Shown here piece by piece: positions 7,477-30,510 of a stretch of DNA of 33,563 bases. The stretch covers positions 1-33,563 of the forward strand of contig JALRLY010000232.1 of NCBI GenBank assembly GCA_023647555.1, in the 5' to 3' direction. The stretch is from Pancytospora philotis (taxonomy: Eukaryota > Microsporidia). The position numbers were made by a program, and so were the translations under genes. Below the pieces are notes generated by a model. The model did not search any database. It was not told where the DNA came from and saw only the letters and a program-made list of their open reading frames with translations. How positions within the stretch are numbered: position 1 is the first letter of the stretch; every line of letters begins with the position of its first letter.

Positions 7477-8679
7477 TTAATAGCCGGAAGTTGCACGGAC
7501 CCGAACTAGCGGGTTTTTGCTTTTCCTTGCAGCCTGCCCATTCTGGGCCACTGGTGCGCGTTGGGCTGGATTTGTATGCCGGGCTCTGGATGCGATCCAT
7601 TGCGCCGTTTCGAGTTCGAGCCGCGCGGCGATAGCGGCCGGCAGTTCTTTTCCGAGCTTGCGGCTGTGCACGTACAGATCCCGCCGCCTCCCCAGTGATC
7701 CGCTCGAACCGTAGTAGTACCGCTCGCACAGCCGAACCAGCGTATCTTCGGGCGCGTTCTGGGTCTTAAGGTATCTGACAAGACAGGGCATGAAGTCAGA
7801 TGGTAGCCACGGGAACTGTTCGATGCTGTCCAGAACGGTTACCAGCTTACAGTTAAAATTGAACTGATCAAAGCACTCCAAAATATGGGGGCATTCTGTG
7901 CTCAAGGCGCAGCGGACTATGGCCATAGCAACGGCCTTTCTGGCTGCTTCCCGCTGCTCTCTGTGGCAGGCAGAAATGTACGTAGAGGTGAGCTCCGCAA
8001 AGAAGCTGATGTCCTCCGTGTTTATCGTGTCGGGCCCTGACAGACTTCCCCTCTTAGATAGTTTCATGCACACGGTTATAAACTCGATGAAGGCCGCCTG
8101 CAGGCTTATATTGAGGCGCCCGCTCCTGGCACGGAGGTAGAAGAGAACGCTGGGGATGTCGTTGCAGCTCTTGTAGAGATCACAAAAATCCATAACACGC
8201 ATTTCCAGCTGCTGCTCAATCCAACGATTGATGGTTCCAAACCATCTACGGGCGTTGGCTGCTTTAGCTTCGGTTTTAAAGTCTTGACTATTACGCATTA
8301 GTTCTAGTATCACGAGCAGATATACAAACGAGTTCTGCGCAATGATGCTGCTGACGGGACGCCCCATTGAGATTTCACAGATTGTGGCGCTTGCTATTTC
8401 TCTAGGGCTTCTGCGCTGCGCGCCGGATAACTCCTGGCCGGGTACGGTAGCGGCATTCGCCATCGGGCCATTCGTTCTGCTCTGCAGCCATTCTGCTTTT
8501 GCGCGACATAATTCCCCGGCCATCTTCTTTGCAGCCCGCTGAAAGGACGAGTCCATGGGGTCAATCCAGGGTGTTTCAGCCTCGGGGAGCGGCGCAGCAC
8601 CCATGGGTGTCTGCTGGTTATAAGCGCAGTTCGTTTCCGTCGCCAATACCAGTATTGGTATGGAAAGCTTCAGCATCAT
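7477..8679 (-). CDS. Secreted family A protein (400 aa), close paralogue of the next gene
   Basis: The upstream GAGCCCC, nine bases before the ATG, and the AAATTTTT block support this start; a second ATG follows at once. MMLKLSIPILVLATETNCA is a short signal peptide. The rest is a helical, Cys-containing body with no membrane segment and a basic Arg/Lys-rich tail. It aligns along its length with the protein at 9020-10183 (for example EISMGRPVSSII, then LCERYYY near residue 320, then ELPAAIA). That YYY block corresponds to the YFTEAG...RLRWL block of the longer family A proteins, so I place it in the same superfamily. Promoter and 3' flank are duplicated as well. Function unknown; likely exported to the parasite surface or host. 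Confidence 0.85.
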   Translation of the reverse strand: MMLKLSIPILVLATETNCAYNQQTPMGAAPLPEAETPWIDPMDSSFQRAAKKMAGELCRAKAEWLQSRTNGPMANAATVPGQELSGAQRRSPREIASATICEISMGRPVSSIIAQNSFVYLLVILELMRNSQDFKTEAKAANARRWFGTINRWIEQQLEMRVMDFCDLYKSCNDIPSVLFYLRARSGRLNISLQAAFIEFITVCMKLSKRGSLSGPDTINTEDISFFAELTSTYISACHREQREAARKAVAMAIVRCALSTECPHILECFDQFNFNCKLVTVLDSIEQFPWLPSDFMPCLVRYLKTQNAPEDTLVRLCERYYYGSSGSLGRRRDLYVHSRKLGKELPAAIAARLELETAQWIASRARHTNPAQRAPVAQNGQAARKSKNPLVRVRATSGY

Positions 8680-9019
8680 TATTATTGGGGCTCAACCGCT
8701 TTAGAAAAATTTGCAACTGACTCGTGATGGGAACATATTTGAATATTTTGCTCGATCTTAATACGGCCATATTTGACAGCTTAGTGAAATGTTATCGCAT
8801 AGCTGATGATATAGGGTTGTTCCTGCTACAGTATTGTTGTGGTTATATAGCAGTAAAGCTTAGTGGGAGCGGTTCTGGAGCATGCTTGCGCAGGTTCAAT
8901 TGGATTACCCAGACAAATTATAATGGCCGCGCTAGAACTAACTATTTAAATATAGAAGCCGCGAAAAGCATTTAATTGATGGCCGGATGCGGCACGGGGC
9001 CAAACTAGCGGGGCGCTGC
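8680..9019. promoter_or_regulatory. Upstream region with duplicated 51-bp block
   Basis: The part beside 8679 has the C-run and AAATTT-like start signals of the gene to its left (minus strand). Bases 8758-8808 match 10261-10311 at 45 of 51 positions, and both lie 78-79 bp upstream of their gene starts. The 83-codon plus frame at 8724-8975 is open across this block but has no start signal. The right end contains the 3' flank of the next gene. Confidence 0.6.
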
Positions 9020-10183
9020 TTATTCTGTAGCCTGCCCATTCTGAACTATTGGAGCGCGACTGGCTGGCCGTGCCACTAGATTTGATAGCCGGCCTGTAAG
9101 CGCGGTCCACTGCATCGTCTCACGTTTGAGCCGCGTCGCGATAGCGGCCGGCAGTTCACTTATGCAAGCAGAGCTGAAGCGCAACAGATCCAGCCGCCTT
9201 CCCAAAGATCCGCTCGCATCGTAGTAGTACCGCTCGCACAGCTGCGCCAGCGTATCTTCTGGTACGTTCTGGGTTTTGAGGTGGCTGACAAGACGCGGCA
9301 TGAAGTCAGATAGCAGCCGCGGGAACTGGTCGACGCTGTCCAGAATGGTAATCATCTCGTGTTTAAAATCGAACTTTTCAAAGTTCTCCAAAATATGGAG
9401 GCATTCTGCGTTTAGAGCGCTGTGCACTATGGCCGTAGCAACGGCTTTTGTAGCTGCTTCCCGTTGCTCTTTAGGACAGGCAGAAATGTACGTGGAAGAG
9501 AGCGCTACAAAGAAGCTGATATCCTCCGTGTCGGGTTCTGACAAACGCCCCATTTTGGACAGTTTCATGCATGCGGTTATAAACTCGATGAGAGCTGTCC
9601 GCATGCTCATATCATTGAAGTGGGCGCTCCTGGCGCGGATGTAGAAAAGGAAGCTGGGAATGCTATTGCGGCCTCTGCAGATGGTACAGAACTCCGTAAC
9701 GGGCATTTCCAACAGCCGCACAATCCAACGATCGATGGCTCCGAGCCATTCACGCGTACTGGCCATCAGAGCTTCTTCTTCAAAGTCTATACTGCAGTGC
9801 AGTATTCCCTGCATTACAAGCAAGAAGGAAAATGAATTTTGCTGAATGATGCTGCTGACGGGGCGCCCCATCGAGATTTCATAGACTGTAGCGCTTGCTA
9901 CTTCGCTAGGTGTTTTGTACTGCTCATCGAGCAGCTCCGAATCGGCCGATGCAGGGATATCTGTCATCACGTTATTCGTGCTGTTCTGCAGCCGGACGAC
10001 CTTTGCGCGACATAATTTCCCAATCATTTTCTTTTCAATGGTTGCAAAGTACGAATCCATGGGTTCAACCCAGATTGGCCCTGTCTCGAGCTGCGGTGCT
10101 GGATCTTCTTGTACCTGTGCATCATCAGTTTGTTCCGTTTCCATTGCTAGGACCAGCAGAGGTATAGAAAGTATCAGCATCAT
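9020..10183 (-). CDS. Secreted family A protein (387 aa), tandem duplicate
   Basis: CCATCCCTCAAT precedes the ATG at 10183. The signal peptide is MMLILSIPLLVLAMETEQ. The body matches the 7477-8679 protein throughout, with substitutions spread evenly rather than confined to one end, which suggests an old duplication now evolving as a protein. Shared landmarks are EISMGRPVSSII, FITACMKLSK, a DISFF block, LCERYYY and ELPAAIATRL. It lacks the basic C-terminal tail of its partner and ends in a short polar stretch. Hydrophobic spacing suggests an all-helical fold. No catalytic motif seen. The 3' flank (GCCGGA...AACTAGCGGG) is shared with the partner gene, so the duplicated unit was longer than the coding part. 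Confidence 0.85.
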   Translation of the reverse strand: MMLILSIPLLVLAMETEQTDDAQVQEDPAPQLETGPIWVEPMDSYFATIEKKMIGKLCRAKVVRLQNSTNNVMTDIPASADSELLDEQYKTPSEVASATVYEISMGRPVSSIIQQNSFSFLLVMQGILHCSIDFEEEALMASTREWLGAIDRWIVRLLEMPVTEFCTICRGRNSIPSFLFYIRARSAHFNDMSMRTALIEFITACMKLSKMGRLSEPDTEDISFFVALSSTYISACPKEQREAATKAVATAIVHSALNAECLHILENFEKFDFKHEMITILDSVDQFPRLLSDFMPRLVSHLKTQNVPEDTLAQLCERYYYDASGSLGRRLDLLRFSSACISELPAAIATRLKRETMQWTALTGRLSNLVARPASRAPIVQNGQATE

Positions 10184-10462: not shown

Positions 10463-11890
10463 TTATTTCTTTTTCATGTGCAGTCTTACGACATGTTCAT
10501 GTACCGCATCCATCTTATTCAGTGACATCTTTTCATAGATAATTTCTCTGAACTGCTTGAATTTCGTTGAGTCTCCCTGGCTGCTCGGGACGAGCTCCAG
10601 CACCTCGACCAACACCCGGGCGATGAAGGCATCCGGCATGCACTCGATAAGAAGGCCATTTTTAGAGCCCTGAATGCACCAGCGCAGCACCCTGAGGTGT
10701 GTGTCCGCGCCAGACTCAAAGTAGTAACGCGTGCACACCCCGTTCTGCTCGTCCTCGCTGATACCCCAGCGTCTGAGCAGCTGGATCAGCTCGGGGAAGA
10801 AGGTATGATCCACCGTCGGGAGCGGACTGGGCAGTCCCCTAAGAATTTCTGTAACGCTGTAGCCGAAAAAATTATCGGCTAAGGCGTTGAGCCCGTGCTT
10901 GTAGTCGCAGTCCAGGAGGCACTGGAGGATATCACGGACGTACTGCTTCCGCGTCTTCTCAACGCAGACCAGCGACTGCGCCATGAACAAGTGGATGAAC
11001 ACGGCAATAAAGCTACAGTTGGCTTCGGTGTTTGTCGATGCTGCCTTATCGCTCTCTTTGATATACCCAATGCAAGATCTCATAAAATCGTTGAAGAGCG
11101 CGCGAAGCGTAGTATACGCCTCTATCTCGCGCCGCACGCACAGGTACAATACATAATCATCGGTGGTGTTATACTCTACCGTAGTCTTGAAGTATTCTAA
11201 CATGTCTTTGCGCAAGGCCTGGTCTATCGAACCGTTGATAGTATTGAGCGCGGCGATCTCTGGCTCTTTGCCCTCCAGGCAGGTGGAGAACGTGAGTGTC
11301 TCGATCCTAAGCACGGCGTCTTCCGGTGTGCGCTTGGTTAGGAATGCCGTGCTGGTTACGTGTCTGGTGAGGAGTTTATGCATCACCATTATGTGGGAGA
11401 ACGGAAGAAGCGCCAGGAGCAAATCGAGCTTGCTGTTTTCCTGGTAGCGCAGCAGCAGGCGGATTGTGTCCTGCTCGATGCCATCAGCTTCTTCATGTCC
11501 AGAGTCCGTGCCTGCATCGATAGCGCAGGCGGCGAGTATATTGAGCGCTTTGTCAAATGTTGCATCTACATCGTTCGCTTGCGCTGTACCAACGGCGGTG
11601 TGTTCAGCTTCAAGCGGCTGTTCATGGCGTATGGTGCCGATGCTGTTAGGCTCCTGCGAGGATCCCAGGAGGTACAGCACGGTTTGGCGGACGGTTTGCA
11701 GTATGTGCATCTCCTCGGGCGTGTAGCCATAGCGGATGTGGCCGATGCGGTGTATAGTAGCCGTGTCGAAATCGCGATTAGTGGCAACAAGCGTGGGATG
11801 GCTGCCGCGCACCCCCGCTAGCAGAACGAGTAATGCGGCACCGAGCAAGCATCTCCAGCGCACGCGGCAGAGGAACTCGCTGCCGTGCAT
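10463..11890 (-). CDS. Secreted family A protein (475 aa), diverged member
   Basis: The start at 11890 follows GGACCCTT. Residues 13-30 (CLLGAALLVLLAGVRGS) are a strong signal peptide. It is a helical protein with no second membrane span. Two regions tie it to family A. NTTDDYVLYLCVRRE near residue 241 matches NTTDYILLVRNRY in the 13765 protein. CTRYYFESGA...LRVLRW near residue 387 matches the YFTEAG...RLRWL block. The middle (about 295-350) also follows the DISFF region of the two preceding proteins. An Asn-Thr sequon falls in the first block. The stop overlaps AAATAAAC. It is transcribed away from the next gene across a 347-bp shared upstream region. Function unknown. Confidence 0.83.
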   Translation of the reverse strand: MHGSEFLCRVRWRCLLGAALLVLLAGVRGSHPTLVATNRDFDTATIHRIGHIRYGYTPEEMHILQTVRQTVLYLLGSSQEPNSIGTIRHEQPLEAEHTAVGTAQANDVDATFDKALNILAACAIDAGTDSGHEEADGIEQDTIRLLLRYQENSKLDLLLALLPFSHIMVMHKLLTRHVTSTAFLTKRTPEDAVLRIETLTFSTCLEGKEPEIAALNTINGSIDQALRKDMLEYFKTTVEYNTTDDYVLYLCVRREIEAYTTLRALFNDFMRSCIGYIKESDKAASTNTEANCSFIAVFIHLFMAQSLVCVEKTRKQYVRDILQCLLDCDYKHGLNALADNFFGYSVTEILRGLPSPLPTVDHTFFPELIQLLRRWGISEDEQNGVCTRYYFESGADTHLRVLRWCIQGSKNGLLIECMPDAFIARVLVEVLELVPSSQGDSTKFKQFREIIYEKMSLNKMDAVHEHVVRLHMKKK

Positions 11891-12237: not shown

Positions 12238-13470
12238 ATGCTGGCCGTCGTCTCATGTGTGCTTGAGGGCGTGGCTGCCAGCCAGTTTGAGGGGAGCGAT
12301 TTTGCGCCGCTCGACATGTCTCGCGGCTACGACCGTATTATAAGGGAAATCAGCCCGTTCAAGGAGATTCTCGTCACGAATCACGGCCGAGACAGAGACC
12401 TGTTCGAAAAAATTTATGACCGCGCGGTAAAGCACTCAGGAAAGCCGCCAAATGACGCTACTGTGACTGAGGCTATGATATACGCAGTTGCAGACTATAT
12501 TGTGAGGGATCCATCTCCCATCGAGTGTGTAGAGAAGAAATTGCTGTTCTGCAATTGCCTCGCGGAATACACCATGATCGCGTCTATTATCCGCTTTGCA
12601 CAGGGAAAGCCAAGCAATGCGGAACAGCGCAGCAGGATCAAATTGCTGCTCGAGCACCTGGACGAGCAGATCGCCGCAAAGCGCGCGGTGGATCCCAAGG
12701 ATTTCTTCGTCAGAAAAAGAAAGGGTCGCTTTCTCTATGATGCACTGGTGTATTTGTTTAGCGAGGTGGATAGCGGCGTGGACGCCGTGCGAGAGCGCTT
12801 TCGCAAGATGCTGCAGGCAGCAGCCGAGAAGAGGGACGTACATCATAACATCCTCGGTACAATCGTAAAATTGGTCAATGCGCTTGATTCGGCTACATTC
12901 ATATGCGACATAGAGCAGTATGAATTCCAAGAGGCGTTTCTCGCGTTTGTGACCTCTCAAGATGGCCTTTGGGCTGTCAAGTTTTTGGATAGCATCAAGC
13001 TTAGTGGTGGGACTGCCGAGCTCGTTCTAGAATATGTAACAAGCGGGCAGCACCTAAGAGTCAATCCATGCTTTGTGGTGCTGTATGCCCAATACGCTCT
13101 GGAGAACGTGACTCAGAATGCTCTTTGGGTGGAGTCCATACTGTTCAAGTACTTTACCGAAGCGGGCCTGCCAGTCCGGCTGAGGTGGCTGTGTGAAATG
13201 CCCGAGATTCTGCGGCGGATGCCTGTGCGGGTGATTTGCCATGTTCTCCATTACATCTGGAAAGACCCCGCGCTCAGCCTGGCATCGTTCATCGATGAAA
13301 AAATGAAAGATGTCGAAGTGAGCCTGTTTTTGGGCACGCTGGCAAGCACCCTAACGGTGGATCACTACCCCGGATTTTATCCTGTGCTACTTGAGCACTG
13401 CCCTTCTAATATCAAGAATGCGTGGGTTGCGTACATTGCGGAGCTGCATGCACAATCCAGCGCTAGATGA
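12238..13470 (+). CDS. Secreted family A protein (410 aa), short form without coiled coil
   Basis: The start lies six bases after AAATTTGCCCT. MLAVVSCVLEGVAASQ is a short signal peptide matching those of the 22066 and 24043 proteins, with a conserved ASQ end. Landmarks are EISPFKEI at residue 37, DPSPI at 91, LAEYTMI at 108, VDPKDFF at 151, YDALVYLFSE at 167, NPCFVVLYAQ at 276, YFTEAG at 305, RLRWL at 314 and CHVLHYIWK at 334. It shows what the ancestral layout probably was. Where its two relatives carry about 110 residues of coiled coil, it has only a short link (about residues 190-205). The fold appears helical and extracellular. Function unknown; no enzyme motif. Confidence 0.87.
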   Translation: MLAVVSCVLEGVAASQFEGSDFAPLDMSRGYDRIIREISPFKEILVTNHGRDRDLFEKIYDRAVKHSGKPPNDATVTEAMIYAVADYIVRDPSPIECVEKKLLFCNCLAEYTMIASIIRFAQGKPSNAEQRSRIKLLLEHLDEQIAAKRAVDPKDFFVRKRKGRFLYDALVYLFSEVDSGVDAVRERFRKMLQAAAEKRDVHHNILGTIVKLVNALDSATFICDIEQYEFQEAFLAFVTSQDGLWAVKFLDSIKLSGGTAELVLEYVTSGQHLRVNPCFVVLYAQYALENVTQNALWVESILFKYFTEAGLPVRLRWLCEMPEILRRMPVRVICHVLHYIWKDPALSLASFIDEKMKDVEVSLFLGTLASTLTVDHYPGFYPVLLEHCPSNIKNAWVAYIAELHAQSSAR

Positions 13471-13764
13471 AGCTGGAAAGGAAATCCGGTGGAGTGCTTT
13501 CTGGATGCTCAGCAATCTCGATGACATGCGCACTAAATTTATACCTTTATAGTTTATCTAATAAAACAGTGGCAAAGAGACAAGTCTCGACCATCAGCGA
13601 CAAATCGTGGTTATCATTTGGAATTAGTAAAACTCGCTTGCGCCGTTTATTGATGGTGGCAACGCCTGGCCAATAGTGCAAAACTTTTACACCGATCTAG
13701 GTATCCATGCAGGGTCGATGCCTGGCCGCCCAGCTACTGTAATCGCAAATTTTCGTTCGCCCAC

Positions 13765-15237
13765 ATGCTGGCCGCAATTTTTTGGCAGCTGGTACGCTGC
13801 CATGCAGGTGCGGATGGTAAGGTAGCTGATCCAGCTGCCATCACCACCACCGACTACACCGAATTCGGCGCTCTCAAGAAACCCAAGCTCAATGCGCTGG
13901 AGAAACGAGTGCTGGATCAGCTCTGGACGAGCGGCATATGCAGTACCAGCCCCGAAATCCCATCAGGAAAAATCGATGCGCGGATGACATTGCCGTCAAC
14001 TGCCGAAAAAACGTGCTGTCTGACCTACTCGGTGCTTGACGACACCAGTCGGCGCGATCAACCCCATCGGCTGCTTGACCGGCTCTTCGACAGCTTTGGA
14101 TCTAGCGGCCACATACTATTGGAGAAGCTCTTCTGTATCGGGTGTCCTGCACCGGCCGCTGGGTACGTTTCAGACGCGCACAAACAGCTGGCCGAGCTCA
14201 TCCAGGCGTCCAGCGACCTGCTGGAAAAGATCGCTGCGGAGGTGGGTACGAGGGTGAGATATGAGCGCACAATCAACTTAGCGCAATATGCTAAAGAAAA
14301 TAAGGTGCCAGATAATACCACTGATTACATACTATTGGTAAGAAACAGGTACATCCTGAATAAGAATGATTTTATTGCGGAGCTATCTGACCTGTTTGAT
14401 TACTGGTTCAATGACTACGAGCGTTTCTCGAAGAACTTCACCACTATCTCCGAATGCATCTCGATAATTTGGCACTACAGAATCCTACCGAATTGGAGGC
14501 AGCCTGAATTCCGGGATAAGTTGGCTAGGCACATCATCGACAAAGAAGAGCCCAGGTATCTGGACCTACTATCCAGCTTCCTGCACAAACAATATGTGAA
14601 GCAGGTAGTTACTGCTTATTTTGAGGCCTACGACTTCGATTTATTCAAGCCACAGTTCGTTCTCAACTACATCAAATATGCCCAGGAATCGGGCGGCGAC
14701 ACATACGGCGTAATATCGCGCACCTGGAGGAGGTACCTAAAGGATGTACCTACATTCTTGCGCAAGAAAACCGCGTTCAAAGATGAACTGTTCACCCAGC
14801 TGCCCCAGTGGTTTCTGCATAAGATATTCGTCCATTTGAAGGGCCTCCCAGCGAACGACCCTAGCAGGGGCGTTAACATCTGCGCCTTTGTACGCAGGCT
14901 CGATTGCGATTTATTTCTCCAGATCGTGAGCAAATGTAAGGGCGTTGAAGAACAGAATGCGCTATTAGATTTCATGCTTGACTGTCTAGATGCTAGCGGA
15001 GTTAAGGAGTATGCATCGTACGTTAATTCTGGTACGTATGGCAATACCATACCCGCTGGATGCATGGATGTAGCATCACAGCTACGCTGTGCAGTAAACG
15101 CACTCATGCGTGAGAGACGAGGTGCTGCGGTGGACGGTCCCCAATTGTCAATTAAAAAGGACAGTATTTTACACGCTGGCAGCGCCAATAACCAGTTACT
15201 TTCTATCGGTGAAGCGGTGTTTCCCATCAAACAATAA
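13765..15237 (+). CDS. Secreted family A protein (490 aa), diverged member
   Basis: AAATTTTCGTTCGCCCAC precedes the ATG. MLAAIFWQLVRCHAGADG is the likely signal peptide. The protein is helical with scattered Cys and no membrane span. NTTDYILLVRNRY (residue 188 on) aligns with the 10463-11890 protein. The segment from PQFVLNYIKYA to WRRYLKDVP aligns in pattern with NPCFVVLYAQYA...FKYFTEAG of the 12238 protein, so it is placed in family A with moderate support. The C-terminal 60 residues are unique. It lies head to tail behind 12238, 294 bp downstream of that gene's stop, with no RNA or other gene between. Function unknown. Confidence 0.83.
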   Translation: MLAAIFWQLVRCHAGADGKVADPAAITTTDYTEFGALKKPKLNALEKRVLDQLWTSGICSTSPEIPSGKIDARMTLPSTAEKTCCLTYSVLDDTSRRDQPHRLLDRLFDSFGSSGHILLEKLFCIGCPAPAAGYVSDAHKQLAELIQASSDLLEKIAAEVGTRVRYERTINLAQYAKENKVPDNTTDYILLVRNRYILNKNDFIAELSDLFDYWFNDYERFSKNFTTISECISIIWHYRILPNWRQPEFRDKLARHIIDKEEPRYLDLLSSFLHKQYVKQVVTAYFEAYDFDLFKPQFVLNYIKYAQESGGDTYGVISRTWRRYLKDVPTFLRKKTAFKDELFTQLPQWFLHKIFVHLKGLPANDPSRGVNICAFVRRLDCDLFLQIVSKCKGVEEQNALLDFMLDCLDASGVKEYASYVNSGTYGNTIPAGCMDVASQLRCAVNALMRERRGAAVDGPQLSIKKDSILHAGSANNQLLSIGEAVFPIKQ

Positions 15238-15704
15238 TGCAAGTACCGGTAAAAATCTGTACTAATCTGGGGTTATCGTGCTATGGCAAGCGCCAAACTT
15301 ATAAAAGTAAATCTACTCAGGCCATGCAATTTTATGATTATTTGAATAATTCGTATCTGCTCCTGCGCCATCTGTGCGCTTCCGCGCGCCAGCTCTTTTA
15401 TTACCAGTTCATAACAGTCGTGCTTACGCATCTTTTCCTTTCGAACTGCTTGTAGCCGATCGTGGCTGGTAATATTAAAACTAGCAATATCTGTAAGCAG
15501 ACAATGATGAATGAAAGCTTCAGCTAGACATTTTTTAATGCTTTCATCCGCACCGATACTTGATGCTGCATCCGAAAGTTGTGCATCACTTTACCTTGAG
15601 CACCATCATAAAACGCATCCTCTCAGTAATATTCCAACGCATAAAACAAAGAACAGTCAAATGAATTTACTAAACCGCCAGCGTTCTATAGATCCCCTGA
15701 GCGG
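15238..15704. other. Intergenic, convergent 3' ends, possibly decayed sequence
   Basis: This 467-bp gap lies between the 3' ends of a family A gene and RNA14. It is AT-rich in places. An ATGAAAGC...GCTTTCAT inverted pair lies near 15511-15546. The plus frame at 15511-15708 starts on an ATG but has no C-run before it and no recognisable similarity. It may be the remains of a gene, but I cannot show this. Confidence 0.45.
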
Positions 15705-21289: not shown

Positions 21290-21398
21290 AAGAAGTTTGT
21301 TAGCTCGGCAGCAGAAGACGCACAGAGCTGCATGCAGATTTGCTAGCCGCTTTAAGATGCGTTTGGCACTGTCATCCGGCGCCTCCTCTGCCGCTTTC

Positions 21399-21435: not shown

Positions 21436-21762
21436 ATGTCCACGCCCGCCCTGCTGAACACCACGATCCCCGCGATCTTCGTGAGCCACAAGCGCAGCCA
21501 GCGCAGAATCCACCCGCGCTATGCTCTCCTCGAGATCAGCGGCGTGAAGGACAGGAATACCGCCGAAAATTACATGAACAACGCAGTCTACATGTGCTGG
21601 ACGAACAAGGAGGGCGAGCTCGTGGAGAACCGCGGCGTGATCCGGAAGCACCACGGGAACAGGGGCACCGTGCGCGCGGTGTTCCAGAGGAACCTGAACC
21701 CCAAGTCCATCGGGCAGACCGTCTACGTCAAGCTCTACAAGGTGGAGGACCTTCCGTTTTAA
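21436..21762 (+). CDS. RPL33: Ribosomal protein eL33 (L33/L35a)
   Basis: It is a large-subunit ribosomal protein that contacts 25S rRNA and tRNA-proximal regions. The 108 aa match the family (yeast 107). Typical segments are FVSHKRSQRRIHPRYALLEI near residue 14, VYMCWTN near 49, NRGVIRKHHGNRGTVRAVFQ near 64 and LPF at the end. The start at 21436 is set by GGACCCATA beside it and two AAAATTTT blocks at 21399-21406 and 21409-21416. The frame extends upstream, but the extra 32 codons are not part of the family. No 5' intron, as sometimes found in microsporidian ribosomal genes, is needed. The stop overlaps AATAAA. Confidence 0.97.
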   Translation: MSTPALLNTTIPAIFVSHKRSQRRIHPRYALLEISGVKDRNTAENYMNNAVYMCWTNKEGELVENRGVIRKHHGNRGTVRAVFQRNLNPKSIGQTVYVKLYKVEDLPF

Positions 21763-22065
21763 ATAAAGCTATACGAAATTGCTGTTTACGGTTGCGCGGG
21801 CTGTCGGCTCAGATATTATGTGTATTTATAGAGTGGTTGTATGGCTATTTGTGATCGGCGCGCTATTTGGATGTATTCTATGCTGGCGTCCGCATTGGGC
21901 AGTTTCTTGAGAGGTAATTGCACCAGTATTATCATCAGATTGAGAATTTACATCTCTTTGCAGCTTCATGCTGCCAACTTCCTCGATTTTAATCTCGGCT
22001 CCACGTGTCTGATAATCGCTCGCACAAAATTTTTTCATCTGCCAATAAAAAATTTGCCCTGAATC
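21763..22065. promoter_or_regulatory. Upstream region of family A gene
   Basis: The right end has AAATTT at 22050-22055 and GCCC at 22056-22059 before the ATG at 22066. The last 60 bp resemble those before 24043. The left part is AT-rich without a gene. Confidence 0.6.
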
Positions 22066-23658
22066 ATGTTGGCCGTTATTTCATGGATACCCGAGGTAGT
22101 ACTCGCCAGTCAGGCGTTGGAGTATTTAAAAATCCCGCAAGATTCTCTTCGCAATTACGACCGTATTGTAATGGAAATCAGCCCGTTCAAGGAGATCTCT
22201 GTCTCGTTTAATCCGCGGGATCGAGACGTGCTTAGAAATATTTATGATCGTGCGCGGAAGCACTCAGGAGATTCACGGGGTGATGTGTATTTAAAGCTTA
22301 TGATACACAGAATTGCAGACTACATCGCGCAGAATCCGTCGCCCATCGAATATGTGAGATATGTGCTAGCGTGCTCCGAAAACCTCGCAGAATACACCAT
22401 GATTGATTCTATAGTCCGCTATGCGCAGGAAAAGCGACGCAAGCATTATAACGCGTCTGCGATTCCCGACGACGATGAAGAATTGCACGGCAAAACTAAA
22501 TCGCTGCTCGCGCACATGAAGACGCAGATCCTGGCGAAGCGCGCGGTAGAGCCCAGGGATTATCTTCGTAGGGAAAATGGGCACAGTTTCTGCTACGACG
22601 CAATGGTGTATTTGTTCAGCGAGCACGACAAAGGCGTCTTCGCTGTGCAAAGGCGTTTTTGCATGATGCTGGCAGTAGCGGTCGAGGAGAGAAAGCTGGC
22701 GGAAGTGGTTGAGGACAGAGAGCAGGCAGTAGCCAATGCACAGAAAAAGGCTGCAGAGGGAGCCGCGGAGAGAGGGCTTGCTGCTATTGACGCGAAGAAA
22801 AAGCTAAAGACAGCGCGTGAGCTGAGAAGGCTGAAGGTGGTGGGTACGAGGGAACAGCTGGCTGCAGCGGTCAAGGAGAGAAAGCGGGCGGTGGCAGATG
22901 AGAAGAGATCGCGGGCAGCGGCGGCTAAGGAGAGATGGCGGGCGGTGGCAGATGAGAAGAGAAAGCTGAAAGAAGCGGTTGAGGAGAGAGACAATGATCT
23001 GAGAATGTTTGATACGATCGTGAATCTGGTCAAAACACTCAAATCCGCTAAGTTCATACGCAACATAGAGAAGTATGAGTTCCAGAGGCTGGTACTCGAG
23101 GTTTTAACCTCCAAGCAGGACCTCCGAGCTGTGAAGTTTCTGGACGCAATTGGGCTAAGTGCCAACGCCTCGCTGGTAGTTCTACAATACATAACGAGCG
23201 GGCAGCGCGCCAATGTCAGCCCGTGCTTTGTGCTGCTGTATACTCAATACGCTCTTGATAGCGGCGTTAAAGATGGTATCTGGGCAGAGTCTATACTGTT
23301 CAAATACTTCACTGAGGCGGGCATGACGGCCCGGTTGAGTTGGCTGTACCACAGGCCTGAAATCCTTCTGCGGATGTCCGAGCGTGTGCTCTGCCATGTC
23401 CTCTACTACGTCTGGAAAGAGCCCGAGCTTGGGCTGGCGTCCTATATCGACGAAGAGCTGAAGGATGTAGACAAGGAATTATTTTTGAGGACTCTGACGA
23501 GATCATTATCCGCGGATTACGGCCCTGAGTTTCATGCCGTGCTACTCAAGCATTGCCCTTCTAACATCAAAATCGCGTGGGATGCGTATGTATCCGAGCT
23601 GCGTGCAGAGAGCAGCACACGCATGGACGCAGCCGGAAAGGACAATCTGAGTGAATGA
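22066..23658 (+). CDS. Secreted family A protein (530 aa) with KER-rich coiled coil
   Basis: The start follows AAATTTGCCCTGAATC. The short signal peptide is MLAVISWIPEVVLASQ. Landmarks are EISPFKEI (37), PSPI (91), LAEYTMI (107), VEPRDYL (161), YDAMVYLFSE (177) and, at the C-terminal side, YFTEAG, RLSWL and CHVLYYVWK. Residues 205-312 form a highly charged Lys/Glu/Arg/Ala coiled coil built partly from an 18-residue repeat, placed where the 12238 protein has only a short link. The domain pair on each side stays well conserved, so the insert probably acts as a spacer or dimer rod. There is no second membrane span. It is closest to the 24043 protein. Function unknown; an exported structural or host-facing role is inferred from the signal peptide only. 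Confidence 0.88.
   Translation: MLAVISWIPEVVLASQALEYLKIPQDSLRNYDRIVMEISPFKEISVSFNPRDRDVLRNIYDRARKHSGDSRGDVYLKLMIHRIADYIAQNPSPIEYVRYVLACSENLAEYTMIDSIVRYAQEKRRKHYNASAIPDDDEELHGKTKSLLAHMKTQILAKRAVEPRDYLRRENGHSFCYDAMVYLFSEHDKGVFAVQRRFCMMLAVAVEERKLAEVVEDREQAVANAQKKAAEGAAERGLAAIDAKKKLKTARELRRLKVVGTREQLAAAVKERKRAVADEKRSRAAAAKERWRAVADEKRKLKEAVEERDNDLRMFDTIVNLVKTLKSAKFIRNIEKYEFQRLVLEVLTSKQDLRAVKFLDAIGLSANASLVVLQYITSGQRANVSPCFVLLYTQYALDSGVKDGIWAESILFKYFTEAGMTARLSWLYHRPEILLRMSERVLCHVLYYVWKEPELGLASYIDEELKDVDKELFLRTLTRSLSADYGPEFHAVLLKHCPSNIKIAWDAYVSELRAESSTRMDAAGKDNLSE
22867..22974 (+). repeat. 54-bp direct repeat in coiled-coil coding sequence
   Basis: Units are 22867-22920 and 22921-22974, with a partial third from 22975. 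The first 42 bases of the two units agree at 38 positions, then diverge. Each unit is 18 codons, in frame, with KERxRAVADEKR at the core. This recent-looking duplication shows how the coiled coil grows. Confidence 0.85.
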
Positions 23659-24042
23659 TTTTCGCACCCAGGGGTATCTGGATAGCGTACGCATTAAATT
23701 TTTAACCTGATTAATTAAATAGAAGGGTAGAGTAGTTACCAAGCGATGTATTAGATCTACCCCTTTTAAAAAAATTATTCGATGGACATCACATCTTATG
23801 AACGAATATCCCTTTCTTATTCGGGTGGTCCGCCGGTCTTTGGTGCTGCCCCCGAAGAAGACTTTGATTTCTCTGAATATAGATTTTTTAGCTTCTTCGC
23901 ATAGAGAACGTCGCACATATAAAAATACTTTCACTAATCAGTTAGTATTAGTTTCTAGGAGATATCTCCCACCAGATTCTGTGCATCTTACAGTTGCTCA
24001 CATGAAAAATTTTTCATATTGCAATAAAAAATTTGCCCCTGT
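23659..24042. promoter_or_regulatory. Intergenic with duplicated flanks and a 16-bp palindrome
   Basis: The start of this gap (to about 23705) resembles the sequence after the next gene (25639-25685), and its end resembles the sequence before 22066. A perfect 16-bp palindrome, ATGAAAAATTTTTCAT, is at 24002-24017. AAATTT (24029-24034) and CCCC (24036-24039) precede the ATG. The open frames over 23542-23934 (minus) and 23798-24046 (plus) have no start signals. Confidence 0.6.
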
Positions 24043-25638
24043 ATGATGCTGACCGTTGTTTCATGGATGCTTGAGGGTGCGCTTGCTAGTCAGTCTGTAG
24101 AGGTTTACAATGATCAGCCCATCGCTTTTCGCAAGCACGATGGCGTTGTAATGAAGGTCAGTCCGCTGAAGGAGGTCCTCTGCTCTGTTTATCAGCGGGA
24201 CAGGGATGCGCTCAGAAAAATCCATGATCGCGCACTGAGGTACGTAGACATAACGCCCCGGGATGATATATCTACAAGGGAAATGATATACAGACTTGCC
24301 GATTATATTGCGAGGGATCCGTCTCCCATAAGCTATGTGGAAAAGATACTAATGCACTGCGATAAGCTCGCAGAATACACACTGATTACGTATGTAGTCC
24401 AGTATGTGCAAGAAAAACGGCGTGACTACTATAAGGAGCGCGGGATTCCCGACGATGATGAGGAATTGCGCAACAAGACCGAATTGCTGCTTAAGCACAT
24501 GAATGAGCAGATTATGGCGAGGCGCGCGGTAGAGCCCAAGGATTTCCTTCACAGAAAAAATGGGTACCTTTTCTTCTACGATGCAATGGTTTATCTGTTT
24601 AGCGAGCACGATAAAGGCGCGGATGCTGTGCGGAGGCGCTTTTGCATGATGCTGGCAACAGCGGTCGAGGACAGAAAGCTGGCAGAAGCAGTCGAGGACA
24701 GGATGCAGGCAGTAGAGGATGCGAAGAAAAAGCGAGTAGAAGTGGCGGCAGAGCGGGAACAGGCAGTGGCTGCTGCGAAGAAGGATTATGCTACTGCGCT
24801 TAAGGAGAAAAAACAGGGGGCGGGTAGGAAGATGGACCGGACAGCGGTAGCCAGGGAGAAAAAGCTGGCAGTAGCGTTTGAGCATAGTAAGCTGTTCGAG
24901 GCGGATATAGAGAGAAAGGCGGCAATAAACACTGAAAGGGAAAGGCTGAAGGAAGCGATCGATGAGAAAGATAATGACTTGAAGATGTTCAATACGATAG
25001 CGAAAATGACCAACGTACTTCTGTCAGCCACATTCATACGCGACATAAAGCAGTATGGGTTCGAGGATATTGTGCTTCTGGTCACGACTTCCCAGGTGGA
25101 TCTCCGGGCGGTCAAGTTTCTGGATGAAATTGGGCTGGGCGCGAGCACCTCGCTTCGAGTTCCACAGTACATAACGACTGGGCAGCACGCCAATGTCAGC
25201 CCGTGCTTTGTGCTGCGGTATATCCAAAATGCAATAGAGAAAGGGGCCAAGGACGCTATTTGGGCCGAGTCTGTGGCGTTCAAGTTCTTTACTGAGGCGG
25301 GCATGTCGGCCCGGTTGAGGTGGCTGCACGACAAGCCCGAGTTCGTGCAGTTTCTGTCCGCGCGTGTGCTCTGCCACGTGCTTTACTACGTCTGGAAGGA
25401 CCCCGAGCTCGACCTCGGGCTCTACATCAACGTAGGATTGAAGTATTTGGATAAGCAGCTGCTCCTGCGCACGCTAACGAGAACACTAACGGCTGATGGC
25501 TACCCCGGGCTGTACCTCGTGCTAATCGAGCACTGCCCGCAGAGCATCAGGGATGCGTGGGCTGCATACATTGCCGAGCTGAGTGCACAGAACAAAGCAT
25601 TTGCAGATGCAGCGGGAGAGGAAGAAATGGAAGAGTGA
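24043..25638 (+). CDS. Secreted family A protein (531 aa) with coiled coil, paralogue of previous
   Basis: AAATTTGCCCCTGT precedes the ATG (a second ATG follows at once). MMLTVVSWMLEGALASQ is the signal peptide. It follows the 22066 protein along its length: KVSPLKEV (38), DPSPI (92), LAEYTLI (109), VEPKDFL (163), YDAMVYLFSEHDKG (179), then a coiled coil at residues 206-314, SPCFVLRYIQ, FFTEAG, RLRWL and CHVLYYVWK. The coiled coil has the same length as in the partner, but its repeat units have diverged, so that part evolves faster. The C-terminus is acidic (AGEEEMEE). The 3' flank resembles that of 22066. Function unknown. Confidence 0.88.
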   Translation: MMLTVVSWMLEGALASQSVEVYNDQPIAFRKHDGVVMKVSPLKEVLCSVYQRDRDALRKIHDRALRYVDITPRDDISTREMIYRLADYIARDPSPISYVEKILMHCDKLAEYTLITYVVQYVQEKRRDYYKERGIPDDDEELRNKTELLLKHMNEQIMARRAVEPKDFLHRKNGYLFFYDAMVYLFSEHDKGADAVRRRFCMMLATAVEDRKLAEAVEDRMQAVEDAKKKRVEVAAEREQAVAAAKKDYATALKEKKQGAGRKMDRTAVAREKKLAVAFEHSKLFEADIERKAAINTERERLKEAIDEKDNDLKMFNTIAKMTNVLLSATFIRDIKQYGFEDIVLLVTTSQVDLRAVKFLDEIGLGASTSLRVPQYITTGQHANVSPCFVLRYIQNAIEKGAKDAIWAESVAFKFFTEAGMSARLRWLHDKPEFVQFLSARVLCHVLYYVWKDPELDLGLYINVGLKYLDKQLLLRTLTRTLTADGYPGLYLVLIEHCPQSIRDAWAAYIAELSAQNKAFADAAGEEEMEE

Positions 25639-25895
25639 TTTTTGGATACAGGGCTTCCTGGATAGCATAAGCATTAAATTTCTGGTTTCAATAATCTAAT
25701 TGAACAGCGGCATAGGAAACTCTATTGTTTCAAACTGTGCTGGTACCAAGGGGTATTTTTGTAGATGTGCTATACTTTGCTTGGGCGCATTTAATAGGAT
25801 CCTAACTGTTCAGAGTCCTCTATGCAAAAAATGCCTTAGGGTTGGAGCACGGACGATAATACAGGGCATGATACAATTTGTGGGCTTCTACCCTG

Positions 25896-26522
25896 CTAGT
25901 TCTCAATAAATTTACTGATCGGATCAAAGGCACCACTGAAACCATTGAAAGTACCTGCGCTAACATAAAGCAAGTTGAAGGCTGTGCAGGCGTAGATCAA
26001 CGACCCTACGTTCTTTGCCATGACCTTGTTTGTGCTTGCGGCCATCCGCGATCTGAAGTGCGCAAAGACACAGCGAAAAGACATAAAGATAGACAGAAGG
26101 GTGGACAGGATTGCGATCGGCCGTGGGAGCGGAAGCAGAGCGGCTAGTACCGGGAAATAGGTGGTGGCGCCCGCCATGGCGGCCATGTCTAGCGCGAGCG
26201 ACTCCTGGTTAAACTTCTCGCCGATCCACCTGGCGTTGGCGAAAATCTGCAGGGACAGCGCGGGGAAGAGCATCAGCAAACGCCCCGCCTCGTCGCTTAG
26301 CACGCTGTATATGCTCTTTGAGTGGTAGAGCGCATTGCAGCAGGCGTGGACGACCACTGACAGGAATGCTACTATGAAAATGTACTCTACGCTCAGCGCG
26401 TACGGCGCGTTGTAGCTCTTGCTCGATATTGGCATAAGTAGGACACTGTGCGTGAGCAGCCTGTACAGCGACAGGTCTTGTTTCTTGCGCTCGTTTGAGG
26501 AGGCTTCCGTTGCGTTATCCAT
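25896..26522 (-). CDS. Multi-span membrane protein of unknown function (208 aa)
   Basis: CCCCGCCCA touches the ATG at 26522. After a polar start (residues 1-20), about five hydrophobic segments follow (approximate residues 28-40, 46-66, 82-98, 110-130 and 132-150, with a last one near 165-190). A basic loop (SFRCVFAHFRSRMAAS) lies near 150. Its size and the opening pattern (L-x-x-H-x-x-x-x-x-P-I-S, then a first span) resemble the family B proteins encoded just to the right on the other strand, but the later signatures of that family are missing. It may be a very distant member or unrelated. No function can be given. It is divergent from 26867 across 344 bp. Confidence 0.75.
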   Translation of the reverse strand: MDNATEASSNERKKQDLSLYRLLTHSVLLMPISSKSYNAPYALSVEYIFIVAFLSVVVHACCNALYHSKSIYSVLSDEAGRLLMLFPALSLQIFANARWIGEKFNQESLALDMAAMAGATTYFPVLAALLPLPRPIAILSTLLSIFMSFRCVFAHFRSRMAASTNKVMAKNVGSLIYACTAFNLLYVSAGTFNGFSGAFDPISKFIEN

Positions 26523-26866
26523 TGGGCGGGGACAGAAAAGCCGCGGGGAAATGTGTGTTTGTATGCCAAGGCGTGTGCGCCGGAATGGCGGTCTGCGATG
26601 CGTCTACTACATAAATGAGATGCAGCGGGCCGGGTAATCCATGAATATAAAGGGGTTGATGCTTCGACCGCCTGGCTGTGTAGCTTTGCAGAAAAACGCT
26701 TATTCATTGCGAGGTAAACGTGCTATTGATAAACGCAAGCGCTAACTCCTAATTCTGCTCTTGCATTGGCTGCGCTGCCCACGCGCTACCCCTAAAACTA
26801 AGTCGCCTGCGATTGGTCCGCTCGGCTCAAGAGCGAATGCAAATTATCAAATCGGCGGAGTCCCCA
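26523..26866. promoter_or_regulatory. Divergent upstream region, shared in part with 27950-28037
   Basis: The right-hand part (about 26780-26866) has GCGCTACCCCTA, GCGATTGG (26809-26816, an inverted CCAAT) and a GTCCCCA start signal, all in the same order as before 28038. The left part holds the GCCCA signal of the minus-strand gene. No RNA seen. Confidence 0.65.
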
Positions 26867-27469
26867 ATGGAAAATGGTAGTACAGGAGCATCACAAGCTG
26901 CAGCCCATAAGCTCTCATTCCTATCTATTCTCATACGCTGCGCGATCTTCAAGCCGGTCAGCGCCGCTAGCTTTCCTGATTCGTTCTTCCGTGGCGTGCT
27001 GTTCATTCTGCTGAGCAGCGTGCTGTTCTTTTTCATCGGTGAAACAGGATGCCTTCTCTTCATCCGGGGCGTGGATCACCGGCTTGTGCGCGATGTTTCG
27101 TTAATTCTTTATTTTACCATGATGGTCAGCATTTCTGTAGCGGCCTGCCTCATCGCTGTGGTAATCAACAGACTGGTCCTCGGCCACCGGTACCTCATCG
27201 GCCGCAACTTCCTTCTCTTCAGCACCACGCTGCTGCACACATTCATTAGGCTGTACGGAACGATGTTTTACCACAGAGACGCGGCCCTGCTGTTCTACTT
27301 TCTCTACTTCGTAGCGTACGGCTGTCTCGCCAATTACTACGTACAAGGCTGTCTACTAAAGGCAGGGGAGCTTGACAGGCTCGACGCCGATGCCAGATTC
27401 AAGATGAGACTGCTGATCTTCATCGAGGTATTTATAATTGTGCATGCGCACTGGCCTCTCTTCTTCTAA
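26867..27469 (+). CDS. Four-span membrane protein, family B (200 aa)
   Basis: The ATG at 26867 follows AGTCCCCA; an upstream ATG at 26837 and the TTG at 26813 have no such signal. Family B landmarks are FKPVSAASFPDSFFRG after a polar start, a first membrane span, a second span ending in VVINR, LIGRNFLLFSTTLL (third span), CLANYYVQGC (fourth), then an acidic LDADARFK helix and a final hydrophobic stretch. The DARFK loop and the short C-terminus suggest a compact helical bundle in an internal or surface membrane. Almost the same signatures occur in the next plus-strand gene and, more weakly, at 30858. No family recognised; the DUF2463/UPF0328 membrane proteins of Encephalitozoon are a comparison to try. 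Confidence 0.82.
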   Translation: MENGSTGASQAAAHKLSFLSILIRCAIFKPVSAASFPDSFFRGVLFILLSSVLFFFIGETGCLLFIRGVDHRLVRDVSLILYFTMMVSISVAACLIAVVINRLVLGHRYLIGRNFLLFSTTLLHTFIRLYGTMFYHRDAALLFYFLYFVAYGCLANYYVQGCLLKAGELDRLDADARFKMRLLIFIEVFIIVHAHWPLFF

Positions 27470-28037
27470 TGCATATTACAGGTTTGCTGATTGGACCACC
27501 AAGCCCTTGCGGTTTATAAGACAAACTGCAGTTAATAAATGCATTATGGCTATATGCGACGGCGTGTGAATGTTTGTTGAAAGCGGTGTACAATTCGAGG
27601 CATTCTTGAAAATATCCTGCACTATTGGCTCGAATAGCCTAGAAATTGGGTTTGATATGCTTCCATAGAAGCAGCCCACACGGTCCAGCATGAGCACCTC
27701 TGTTTTAGTCCGAATAGTACACAATCGCACAAGGATGAGTCATGCGCTTTATTAGTTAGCTGCATACTGACTTGCTTAACGAGGATCAGCACTCAACATC
27801 TATTCTGTCTCATTCGTTCGGCTCCCTTGAAAGTCCGCACCCGTTGGCAAAAATCGCGCGCCACGGCCTTTGAGCACCTTTTCAACTCAGGCAGCGTGTT
27901 CACCAGCCACTAGCGCCATGACTCGGCCGTGCGACCCTATCAGCTGCCGCCTAATGCGCTACCCCTAATACCGAGCCGCGGCGATTGGTCCGCGCAATTC
28001 CAAAGCGGAATGCAAAATTTTATATTGGGGTGCCCCA
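27470..28037. other. Longest gap in the window; upstream region of second family B gene
   Basis: The last 90 bp repeat the upstream sequence of the first family B gene: GCGCTACCCCTA, GCGATTGG (27981-27988), AAAATTTT at 28014-28021 and CCCC at 28033-28036. The rest is unexplained. A minus-strand frame at 27476-27730 starts on GTG (first ATG 13 codons in) and lacks a C-run. It is a weak candidate for a gene remnant. Confidence 0.5.
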
Positions 28038-28649
28038 ATGGTAATCCGCAATACAGGAGTATCGCCGGCGTCGCAGTCGCGGGCCATAGAGGAGTACAGG
28101 CTAGCAGCTGTAACCATTTTCAAGCACTGCGCGACGTTCACGCCGGTCAGCGCCGCGTCATTCCCCGATTCGTACTTCCTGGGCACGGTTTTTATCCTGC
28201 TGAGTTGCTTACTGTATACCGCCACCCGTGGAATAGTGCGTTATATCCTTAAGGGAGCATTGTGTCCGTCGCCCGGCATAGTTGCGGATGCTTTAAATTT
28301 TCTCCTGATGGTCAGCATTTGCGCGCTCAATTGCCTCGTCTCCGCGGTGATCAACAGACAGATTCTCGGTCCCAAGTACCTCATCGGCCGCAACTTCCTC
28401 CTCTTCAGCACTACGCTGCTGTACATGTTTGTTAGGGCATTCGTGCTACTACTCGATGGAGGCAATAGCCTCTTGTTCCACATGATCTACTTTGGCGCTA
28501 TCAGCTGCCTCGCCAACTACTACGTGCAAGGATGCCTGCGCGAGGCTGGAGAATTTGATGAGCTCGACAACGATACCAGATTTAAGGTGAGGCTGCTGAT
28601 TTTCATCGAGATCCTTGTAATCTTACACACGCATGGGATGTTCCTCTAG
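28038..28649 (+). CDS. Four-span membrane protein, family B (203 aa), close paralogue
   Basis: TGCCCCA touches the ATG, with AAAATTTT about 17 bp before that. The protein matches the 26867 product closely in FTPVSAASFPDSYF, the VINRQILGPKYLIGRNFLLF run, CLANYYVQGC and LLIFIEI near the end, and less in the first span and the loop after it. Conserved parts are concentrated in spans 3 and 4 and the following acidic helix (ELDNDTRFK), which probably form the functional core. There is no signal peptide; the first span likely acts as the anchor. The upstream region was duplicated together with the gene. Function unknown. Confidence 0.83.
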   Translation: MVIRNTGVSPASQSRAIEEYRLAAVTIFKHCATFTPVSAASFPDSYFLGTVFILLSCLLYTATRGIVRYILKGALCPSPGIVADALNFLLMVSICALNCLVSAVINRQILGPKYLIGRNFLLFSTTLLYMFVRAFVLLLDGGNSLLFHMIYFGAISCLANYYVQGCLREAGEFDELDNDTRFKVRLLIFIEILVILHTHGMFL

Positions 28650-28995
28650 AAGTGCAAAAATTAAACGTTATTTGGAGCCAGCTGCGTGTTTTGAGAGCAA
28701 TATTCTTTTCACTGCCGAATGGGTCTGTACTCTGGACAGGATGCACTGGAGTATCGCGGCGTTGCTGCGGTTCTTGATCGCCTGGATATCCTTGCAGACA
28801 CCAAGCGGCGCAAAGAGGCATTACTGATCGAAGCTGTAGCGTTGGTCAGGATCTGTCGTATAGTGCCGTGACAGATAAGCTGCACAAACACGATCTACGA
28901 GCTGGCGAGAAATCGTTGAAATAGAGACAGTGTTGTGGCTGCAAATCCCAGGCCTTTCGTAGCCGATAAATTTTTTAAAAAATTCATCCGTTGTG
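28650..28995. promoter_or_regulatory. Intergenic with AT palindrome before family A gene
   Basis: AATTTTTTAAAAAATT at 28969-28984 is a perfect 16-bp palindrome, ending 11 bp before the ATG at 28996. A weak C-pair (ATCC) follows in place of the usual C-run. Short frames at 28709-28891 and elsewhere are unsupported. Confidence 0.55.
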
Positions 28996-30510
28996 ATGTG
29001 GTCCGGTGCGCCGCTCCAGGTTTTCCTACTGCTTATCACCGGCATTGCTGCTGCCACCGCCACAGGCGGTTTCAGTGCACCAGCGCGCAGCGTAATAGGG
29101 TATGCGGAGATCAGCCCGTTCAGGGGAAAGCTCCATGGGCAGAGCCAGACAATTGATGTGCTGAAGGGCATCTACCAACGAAGCGTCACCCACTTCATGA
29201 AGAAGGCCGGTGAACCTGCAGGTCGTTCCAACAGAAAAGAGTCATATACATGCTACAACATGAGGTATTGGATTGTCGCAAACGTTCTACGGCAGGACAA
29301 GCCCGTGGATTTCATCAAGGAGCTCTTCTGCCAGCCGCATCTCGCTGCGTGCCGCACGCTTGGGCTGATCTTTGAGCACCTCGATCTAACAGAGCTAAAA
29401 AGGGCGTCAAAGAAATTAGTACCGGCTATGGATATGGACAGAGCAACGCTCGATTCGCTTTTGAGCAGGGCTAAACGCGAACTGCCCGAGATTAAACGAA
29501 TCTTAAGTACAATGGTAGAGAAAATGATCGCGCAGAGCCCACGCGATTTTATAGCCGACCACCATTCCGAGCGGGCTCCCAAGGACATCCTTGCCTACAT
29601 CTCGCTTAGGTGCGAGTGCGGCGAGCGCCCGCTGGCGAGCGAGCTTTCTGCAGTACTAGAAGCGATACGTGCGCGAGTGGAAGCGATAAGGCGAGTGGAG
29701 GATGCTGAAGTGACTAGTCCTGAGAAGAGAGGCGAGGAGCGCTATTTCTGCATGAGAATGGAGAAGGAATTGCTCTTCGCATCTATTCATTCTCTTCTAA
29801 ACCTAGGCTACAGGGCCAGAACAAACAATTGTGAACTCTTCGCGCTGACTCTTAATTGCATGGCATCCCGGTATAGCAGGAGCTTCATCGAGCTGCTGGT
29901 GTCTTCCCTGCTCAAAGACAGCACCATGGAAGCAGTCGTAGATTACATCTGTACTGCCGGTGCTGGGAGCGTGGACCCGTATTTCGCATGCGATTTTTTT
30001 GCTGCACTGAAGGAAAGGGCGAGGATTGACGAAGAGAAGCAGGCCGAGTATTTGCATAGCTATTACAGCAATAGCAACGCGGACAGCCGGATCAAGCTCC
30101 TAGCTTTCGATGAGAAACACCCGGAGCCGCTACCCCACAGGTTTTTCCAGCTTCTGGATTCGCTGTACAGCGAGCGCGCCCATCGCACCCGCCCTAGGCG
30201 TTCGGCGTTATATCGGCCCGCTAAAAGCAGAAATCTGGACCGGGACAGCACAATTGCAGACCTGTATCTGGAAGGATACGAGGCATGGCGCCTCAAGTAT
30301 GAGGAGGGCGTAGTAGATATGCCTCACCTGGAGGCGGCGCACTGCAGCTATCCGGACCACGATAGTAGTGTCGCAGACCAGCGGCCAGAGGAGTGCGAGG
30401 AAATTTCCCACGAGTATGAGGATATCGTAGCAGACATGCCGCCTTTGGAGGCGGTGCTTCGCAGCATAGACGCTGCCGTTTCGCTTATGACCACGGATGA
30501 ATCGTCTTAG
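28996..30510 (+). CDS. Secreted family A protein (504 aa) with duplicated acidic tail
   Basis: The ATG at 28996 is used; the GTG just before it is in frame but less likely. MWSGAPLQVFLLLITGIAAA is a strong signal peptide. AEISPFRGK near residue 37 is the family A N-terminal signature. Matching blocks follow: KPVDFIKELFCQPHLAACRT for PSPI...LAEYT, SPRDFI for EPKDFL, VDPYFACDFF for SPCFVLRY, and YYSNSNADSRIKLL for the YFTEAG...RLRWL block. The middle (about residues 205-240) has a short charged helix rather than the long coiled coil. Residues 414-451 and 452-490 are two copies of an acidic, Tyr-containing unit (DRDSTIAD.../DHDSSVAD..., ending VDMPHLEA/ADMPPLEA), absent from other members. Function unknown; the tail could be a binding peptide. 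Confidence 0.85.
   Translation: MWSGAPLQVFLLLITGIAAATATGGFSAPARSVIGYAEISPFRGKLHGQSQTIDVLKGIYQRSVTHFMKKAGEPAGRSNRKESYTCYNMRYWIVANVLRQDKPVDFIKELFCQPHLAACRTLGLIFEHLDLTELKRASKKLVPAMDMDRATLDSLLSRAKRELPEIKRILSTMVEKMIAQSPRDFIADHHSERAPKDILAYISLRCECGERPLASELSAVLEAIRARVEAIRRVEDAEVTSPEKRGEERYFCMRMEKELLFASIHSLLNLGYRARTNNCELFALTLNCMASRYSRSFIELLVSSLLKDSTMEAVVDYICTAGAGSVDPYFACDFFAALKERARIDEEKQAEYLHSYYSNSNADSRIKLLAFDEKHPEPLPHRFFQLLDSLYSERAHRTRPRRSALYRPAKSRNLDRDSTIADLYLEGYEAWRLKYEEGVVDMPHLEAAHCSYPDHDSSVADQRPEECEEISHEYEDIVADMPPLEAVLRSIDAAVSLMTTDESS
30235..30465 (+). repeat. Imperfect 114/117-bp tandem repeat in coding sequence
   Basis: Unit 1 is 30235-30348 and unit 2 is 30349-30465, in frame. They are clearly related at protein level (D-x-D-S-x-x-A-D start, E-Y/K-E core, D-M-P-x-L-E-A end) but well diverged in DNA, so the duplication is not recent. 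Confidence 0.75.

Follow-up and report, generated by a model that had tools for sequence, protein, structure and literature searches.

The 33,563-base contig JALRLY010000232.1 of Pancytospora philotis, a microsporidian that parasitises nematodes, encodes eight members of one large and highly diverged protein family, here termed Family A. This contig (C65) is the whole stretch analysed, hereafter the window, and it is one of the 83 contigs (3.68 Mb) of the genome that was searched. Profile comparisons link the eight proteins, relatives form arrays across the genome, one member records an exchange between paralogues, the structural models are helical, and no known domain was found. The evidence leans, if only modestly, towards Family A being a large PanLGF1-type family of secreted, all-alpha scaffolds that would bind host proteins and would grow by duplication and exchange. 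A first-pass annotation of the window had proposed a secreted, host-facing family of eight; the observation held, the family proving larger than was visible there, and the interpretation found partial support. Large secreted families are among the leading candidates for mediating microsporidian dealings with host cells, and most are without a known fold or mechanism. Family A does not alone open a new kind of system; its helical models, its outlying subgroup and the exchange give structural studies a concrete point of departure, as they do the study of change in a repertoire of this sort.

The eight genes

The eight open frames, each referred to here by its first coordinate, stand where the first-pass annotation had placed them, the start of 28996 being an in-frame ATG one codon downstream of GTG. 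Family A falls into five subgroups (B, C, D, E and F), and the genes and inserts in the window are as follows (aa, amino acids):

7477..8679, minus strand: subgroup B, 400 aa; 57% identical to 9020; AlphaFold2 model
9020..10183, minus strand: subgroup B, 387 aa; clade with 7477, support 1.0
10463..11890, minus strand: connecting member between subgroup B and the others, 475 aa; blastp to 7477, 5e-8; hhalign probability 96.8
12238..13470, plus strand: subgroup E, 410 aa, coiled-coil-like insert absent; blastp, iterative profile and model
13765..15237, plus strand: subgroup F (the largest), 490 aa; 77 own-genome matches; E-F hhalign probability 99.4
22066..23658, plus strand: subgroup E, 530 aa, with a charged insert between two halves; genome search, blastp and alignment
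22702..22965, plus strand: charged, coiled-coil-like insert of 22066 (about residues 213-300); alignment columns, limits approximate
24043..25638, plus strand: subgroup E, mosaic, 531 aa; genome search, blastp and site test
24679..24942, plus strand: charged, coiled-coil-like insert of 24043, placed as in 22066; alignment columns, limits approximate
28996..30510, plus strand: subgroup C, 504 aa; 15 own-genome matches; C-E hhalign probability 99.6

The coiled-coil character of the two inserts was judged by eye. Four blocks earlier picked out by eye are seen in the alignment (DPSPI..LAEYT, EPKDF, N/SPCF and KYFTEAG..RLRWL), and the most conserved positions among 76 members, in 12238 numbering, are D168 (74/76), L114 (68/76), F279 (67/76) and Y283 (63/76). 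To call some of the proteins near copies was an overstatement, the closest pairs in the window being 55-57% identical.

Linkage of the eight proteins into one family

Blastp among the 24 proteins of the window connected 22066, 24043 and 12238 at E < 1e-50 and 7477 with 9020 at 1e-148; the 10463-7477 (5e-8) and 12238-28996 (2e-6) links were fainter, and that of 13765 to 22066 reached merely 0.019. Profile searches took in 204 proteins, namely 180 open frames from fetched loci and the 24 window proteins. Iterative profiles seeded with 22066/24043/12238, with 13765 and with 28996 converged on an identical set of 88 of the 204, which includes 10463, 12238, 13765, 22066, 24043 and 28996. Subgroups C, D, E and F were interlinked in whole-protein hhalign comparisons at probabilities of 94.1-99.6, and three control groups reached no more than 1.5 against F and 0.4 against C, D and E. 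In a tree of 79 proteins the trio 7477/9020/10463 (support 0.99) and subgroups E (0.96), C (1.0) and D (1.0) formed clades, several inner nodes being weakly supported.

The critical question concerns the trio, that is, subgroup B, which might be an unrelated helical family scoring through general resemblance. Several observations favour such a separation and count against a single family: an iterative profile seeded with 7477/9020 halts at three proteins and never leaves the trio; plain hmmsearch gives 7477 an E of 6.6, ranking it behind three shuffled sequences and the unrelated helical protein 15705 (2.2); and whole-protein hhalign links of subgroup B to single subgroups are uneven (F 58.2, D 37.9, E 5.2, C 1.6). 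Against it stand the comparisons with the main profile of 76 non-redundant members, from which 7477, 9020 and 10463 were left out. Here 10463 reached a profile-profile probability of 96.8, the whole trio 95.7, and 7477 with 9020 alone 50.2, the last with P 2.5e-5, nearly the whole length aligned and a score of 28 versus at most 9.9 in 40 shuffles; none of 40 shuffles of each query exceeded 0.8, and for four other proteins or groups from the window the value stayed at or below 0.1. The same held-out profile detected 10463 at E 4.2e-6, where the best of 900 shuffles attained 0.89. Moreover, the helices of the 12238 and 7477 models correspond, as described below. We therefore regard an unrelated subgroup B as very improbable. 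To judge from the sequences all eight proteins are related, as the first-pass annotation had supposed, with 12238, 13765, 22066, 24043 and 28996 joined strongly, 10463 well, and 7477 and 9020 more weakly and by the least direct evidence.

Structural models and domain searches

The AlphaFold2 model of 12238 is all-helical (mean predicted local distance difference test score, pLDDT, 77.9; predicted template modelling score, pTM, 0.72), as is that of 7477 (pLDDT 66.9). When the two are aligned over 275 pairs, the helix state is the same in 85%, against a mean of 61% and a maximum of 71% for shifted alignments. The helical bodies proposed earlier are supported for both modelled subgroups, the models having corresponding helices and not different folds. 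No internal repeat was detected between parts of the profile (probability at most 1.1 in five comparisons).

A Pfam scan returned no family above cut-off for any of the eight, in agreement with the earlier remark that no enzyme motif is visible. A match of 13765 to Glyco_transf_61 (E 0.0017, below cut-off, in 1 of 20 members) and one to Talin_middle (1 of 20 members) were taken as chance. Foldseek searches with the 12238 and 7477 models gave no match at E <= 0.001; neither the Foldseek rows (best E 0.038) nor matches to Protein Data Bank sequences (best E 0.22) were taken as relatives.

Family size and genomic arrangement

Own-genome searches, the query included, yielded 42 matches for 22066, 77 for 13765, 15 for 28996, 3 each for 7477 and 10463, 28 for a member on contig C38 and 7 for one on C43. 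Merged, these amount to 129 places on 33 contigs, or 125 Family A genes if two-domain and split frames are counted once. On contig C39 of this genome (G000) seven family genes in one stretch (about 47.9-77.7 kb) have counterparts with equal scores in another (about 90.1-119.9 kb), each 42,207 bases away; this may be a large duplication or an assembly artefact, and in the latter case the gene number may be 118. No contig of this assembly is below 10,104 bases in length, so that shorter ones were probably left out and the family must be taken as at least this large; PMC10393165 reports sizes of 4.2 and 4.6 Mb for the two Pancytospora genomes.

Frames on contigs C79 and C42 are identical to PAPHI01_1458 and PAPHI01_2236 of P. 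philotis, respectively. 22066 and two alignments of 20 rows served as queries for protein database searches, which scored 7,993, 7,994 and 7,998 candidates, and among the matches listed were only window proteins and these two. As the lists were full and missed members given in the alignments, they say nothing on relatives in other species.

The family is arranged in arrays. For 57 of 90 fetched frames, which contain some split-gene fragments, the best paralogue lies within 15 kb, and 55 of these 57 pairs are on the same strand; permuted positions gave a mean of 4.5 and a maximum of 14 in 1000 permutations. Since fetching favoured clusters over single genes, 57/90 is an upwardly biased share. 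At a blastp threshold of 1e-10 the 90 frames fall into components of 49, 23, 9, 6, 2 and 1. Contig ends hold no excess of family genes: 74 of the 125 lie in the terminal 15 kb of a contig, a zone that makes up 0.57 of the genome. Three frames of 847-911 aa carry a tandem double Family A body (L011:902-3442, L011:7228-9960 and L012:166-2835 among the fetched loci), and in-frame stops in the matches at C6:66128, C52:49638, C26:8268 and C70:85 suggest that decayed copies exist.

The window contains no close local pairs other than 7477/9020 and 22066/24043, at 55-57% identity. For 10463 the top match is 7477, with 24% identity, and the nearest relatives of 12238, 13765 and 28996 lie on C79, C75 and C39, respectively. 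Hence the two local clusters described earlier are in part old lineages standing side by side rather than simply local copies. The earlier view of an old family that is still duplicating is supported.

Exchange between paralogues and the mode of divergence

The gene 24043 changes its closest relative along its length. In the first 210 codons its DNA identity is 71% with 22066 and 59% with the C79 gene; in codons 301-531 the C79 gene is the nearer, at 85%, and 22066 stands at 70%. A site test drew on 418 informative sites: to the left of the best breakpoint 168 of 258 resemble 22066, and to the right 134 of 160 resemble C79. The resulting chi-square is 94.8, and none of 1000 permutations exceeded 18.6. 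The shared segment runs beyond the stop codon by 77 bp:

24988..25715, plus strand: segment common to 24043 and the C79 family gene; 86% identity over 728 bp

The tree places the whole of 24043 beside the C79 gene (0.97), as expected of a mosaic. The site test clearly shows that 24043 took part in an exchange, in either direction, between paralogues on different contigs.

How general such events are was gauged half by half: in 37 of 76 proteins the two halves differ in their best paralogue, but both sides exceed 30 bits in only 2 of the 76, and 24043 itself scores 26 bits in this test. For other members exchange is no more than suggested. A bolder proposal is that Family A constitutes a combinatorial library, in which N- and C-terminal halves of secreted alpha-solenoids are swapped among more than 100 loci. 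We consider this improbable; were it true, new binding surfaces would arise from module swapping more than from point change.

The ratio of non-synonymous to synonymous divergence (dN/dS) over whole genes was 0.26-0.58 in 10 close pairs, and the proportion of non-synonymous differences (pN) exceeded that of synonymous ones (pS) in 1 of 43 windows of 60 codons from six pairs. The sequences are diverse yet constrained, and the ratios do not point to positive selection. The earlier description of the family as fast-changing finds no support in the sense of positive selection, although exchange between paralogues does occur.

N-termini and the proposed role

N-termini were scored by a simple hydrophobicity measure in 80 frames. 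By this measure all eight proteins have N-termini of secretion type, in keeping with the signal peptides ascribed to them earlier: a hydrophobic stretch of nine residues begins and ends within residues 1-28 of each (1.64-2.98, 22066 being the weakest). A score of at least 2.0, attained by 8% of internal stretches, was found in 51 of the 80 frames read from the first methionine and in 57 read from some methionine in the first 60 residues; at 1.5 the numbers rise to 66 and 72. The laxer threshold is also passed by 33% of shuffled proteins and by 29% of internal stretches, the latter of which weakens the evidence for secretion. A 19-residue hydrophobic window beyond residue 40 occurs in 12 of the 80 frames, none of the 80 ends in K/H/R-DEL, and motifs resembling nuclear localisation signals are not enriched (23 of 80 versus 28.6 expected).

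Taken together, we envisage that each protein would consist of a secretion-type N-terminus followed by an all-alpha, probably solenoid-like body of some 18-24 helices, with two-domain versions also encoded. The parasite would secrete Family A proteins during growth in the nematode cell, where they might bind host proteins as scaffolds without enzymatic activity; the repertoire would expand by tandem duplication and be reshuffled by paralogues trading segments at least now and then. The host-facing part of this reading draws on analogy with the NemLGF1 and NemLGF5 proteins of Nematocida, which proximity labelling located in host cells, some of them in the nucleus (PMC5423893). By that analogy a host-facing binding role for Family A is plausible.

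The same N-termini would equally suit a coat protein, and the proteins have a median of 10 cysteines; both would accord with structural components of the spore wall, polar tube or parasite surface that are not delivered into the host cell. We know of no spore-wall component that occurs, like Family A, in more than 100 divergent, tandemly duplicated copies, and N-glycosylation sequons are not enriched (150 versus 154.8 expected), a point that bears weakly. A structural role thus seems unlikely, and we continue to favour secreted host-binding scaffolds.

Other features of the window

Several further elements are present in the window. At 625-1935 lies a member of a second large family with a hydrophobic N-terminus, for which no profile link to Family A was found; this protein and a distant member each gave 37 own-genome matches, many of them on C5 and C73. 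A DUF5089 protein (6561-7421, E 3e-54) adjoins the first Family A cluster. Three paralogous hydrophobic proteins without a Pfam match are encoded at 26813-27469, 28038-28649 and 30858-31460, and a genome search with 28038 returned these three only. The proteins of 19760-20443 and 5439-6251 are weakly similar (E 4e-4), with hydrophobic segments near the C-terminus as judged by eye. A 72-base element at 33439-33510 recurs unchanged on C79 and C35 and at 94% identity on C69.

Comparison with known families

Among known folds, the ARM/HEAT alpha-solenoids (beta-catenin, importins and the condensin subunit Ycg1) make up the majority of the best rows for the 12238 model, a likeness of general helix stacking. 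InterB/DUF1609, found within NemLGF26 (PMC10393165), is likewise a large gene family of several microsporidia. The link to it raised by the first-pass annotation was not recovered: 38 distinct members gave no DUF1609 match at E <= 1 in a sequence-versus-profile search, the presence of the model in the Pfam copy being unchecked.

A closer candidate is NemLGF1, a large signal-peptide family of Pancytospora and Nematocida with species-specific expansions (PMC10393165, PMC5423893, PMC4928854). Family A, or its largest subgroup F, could be this other big P. philotis family: the 81 P. philotis members reported in PMC10393165 differ little in number from the matches found for 13765, 77 in all, of which some fall in the repeated C39 stretch, and NemLGF1 proteins have signal peptides and a helical C-terminal domain (PMC10393165, PMC5423893). 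The iterative profiles, however, join F with C, D and E, so that a similar published procedure should yield well over 81 members; Family A as a whole exceeds 81 genes, and subgroup F comes near that number. The published families overlapping by at least 90% were, moreover, collapsed (PMC10393165), and NemLGF1 has three described domains, the comparison with Family A being by description only. We hold the equation with NemLGF1 to be rather doubtful.

The most likely counterpart, going by size, lack of Pfam domains and estimated gene position, is PanLGF1, a Pancytospora family of unknown function described by Wadi et al. 2023 (PMC10393165), the model of whose member PAPHI01_0471 bears no apparent resemblance to solved proteins. 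The position of PAPHI01_0471 was estimated from two locus tags on the assumption that tags follow contigs by decreasing length. Given gene densities of 0.66-0.67 per kb up to tag 1458 and of 0.71-0.75 from there to 2236, it would fall at about 97-111 kb of contig C6, adjoining the Family A array at 66-105 kb. Together with size, this makes PanLGF1 the best guess. For PanLGF1 a signal peptide or transmembrane domain would be expected in at least half of the members; by the simple hydrophobicity measure 51 or 57 of the 80 Family A frames, depending on the start, have a candidate N-terminus at 2.0 or above. PMC10393165 was the only literature found on PanLGF1, and nothing on Family A was found in titles and abstract starts on microsporidian gene conversion, subtelomeres, armadillo repeats and effectors. 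The accessible part of the PanLGF1 account, with which Family A was compared by description only, mentions neither subgroups nor segment exchange nor the 7477 group. What is added here to that account is the outlying 7477 subgroup and one well-supported exchange.

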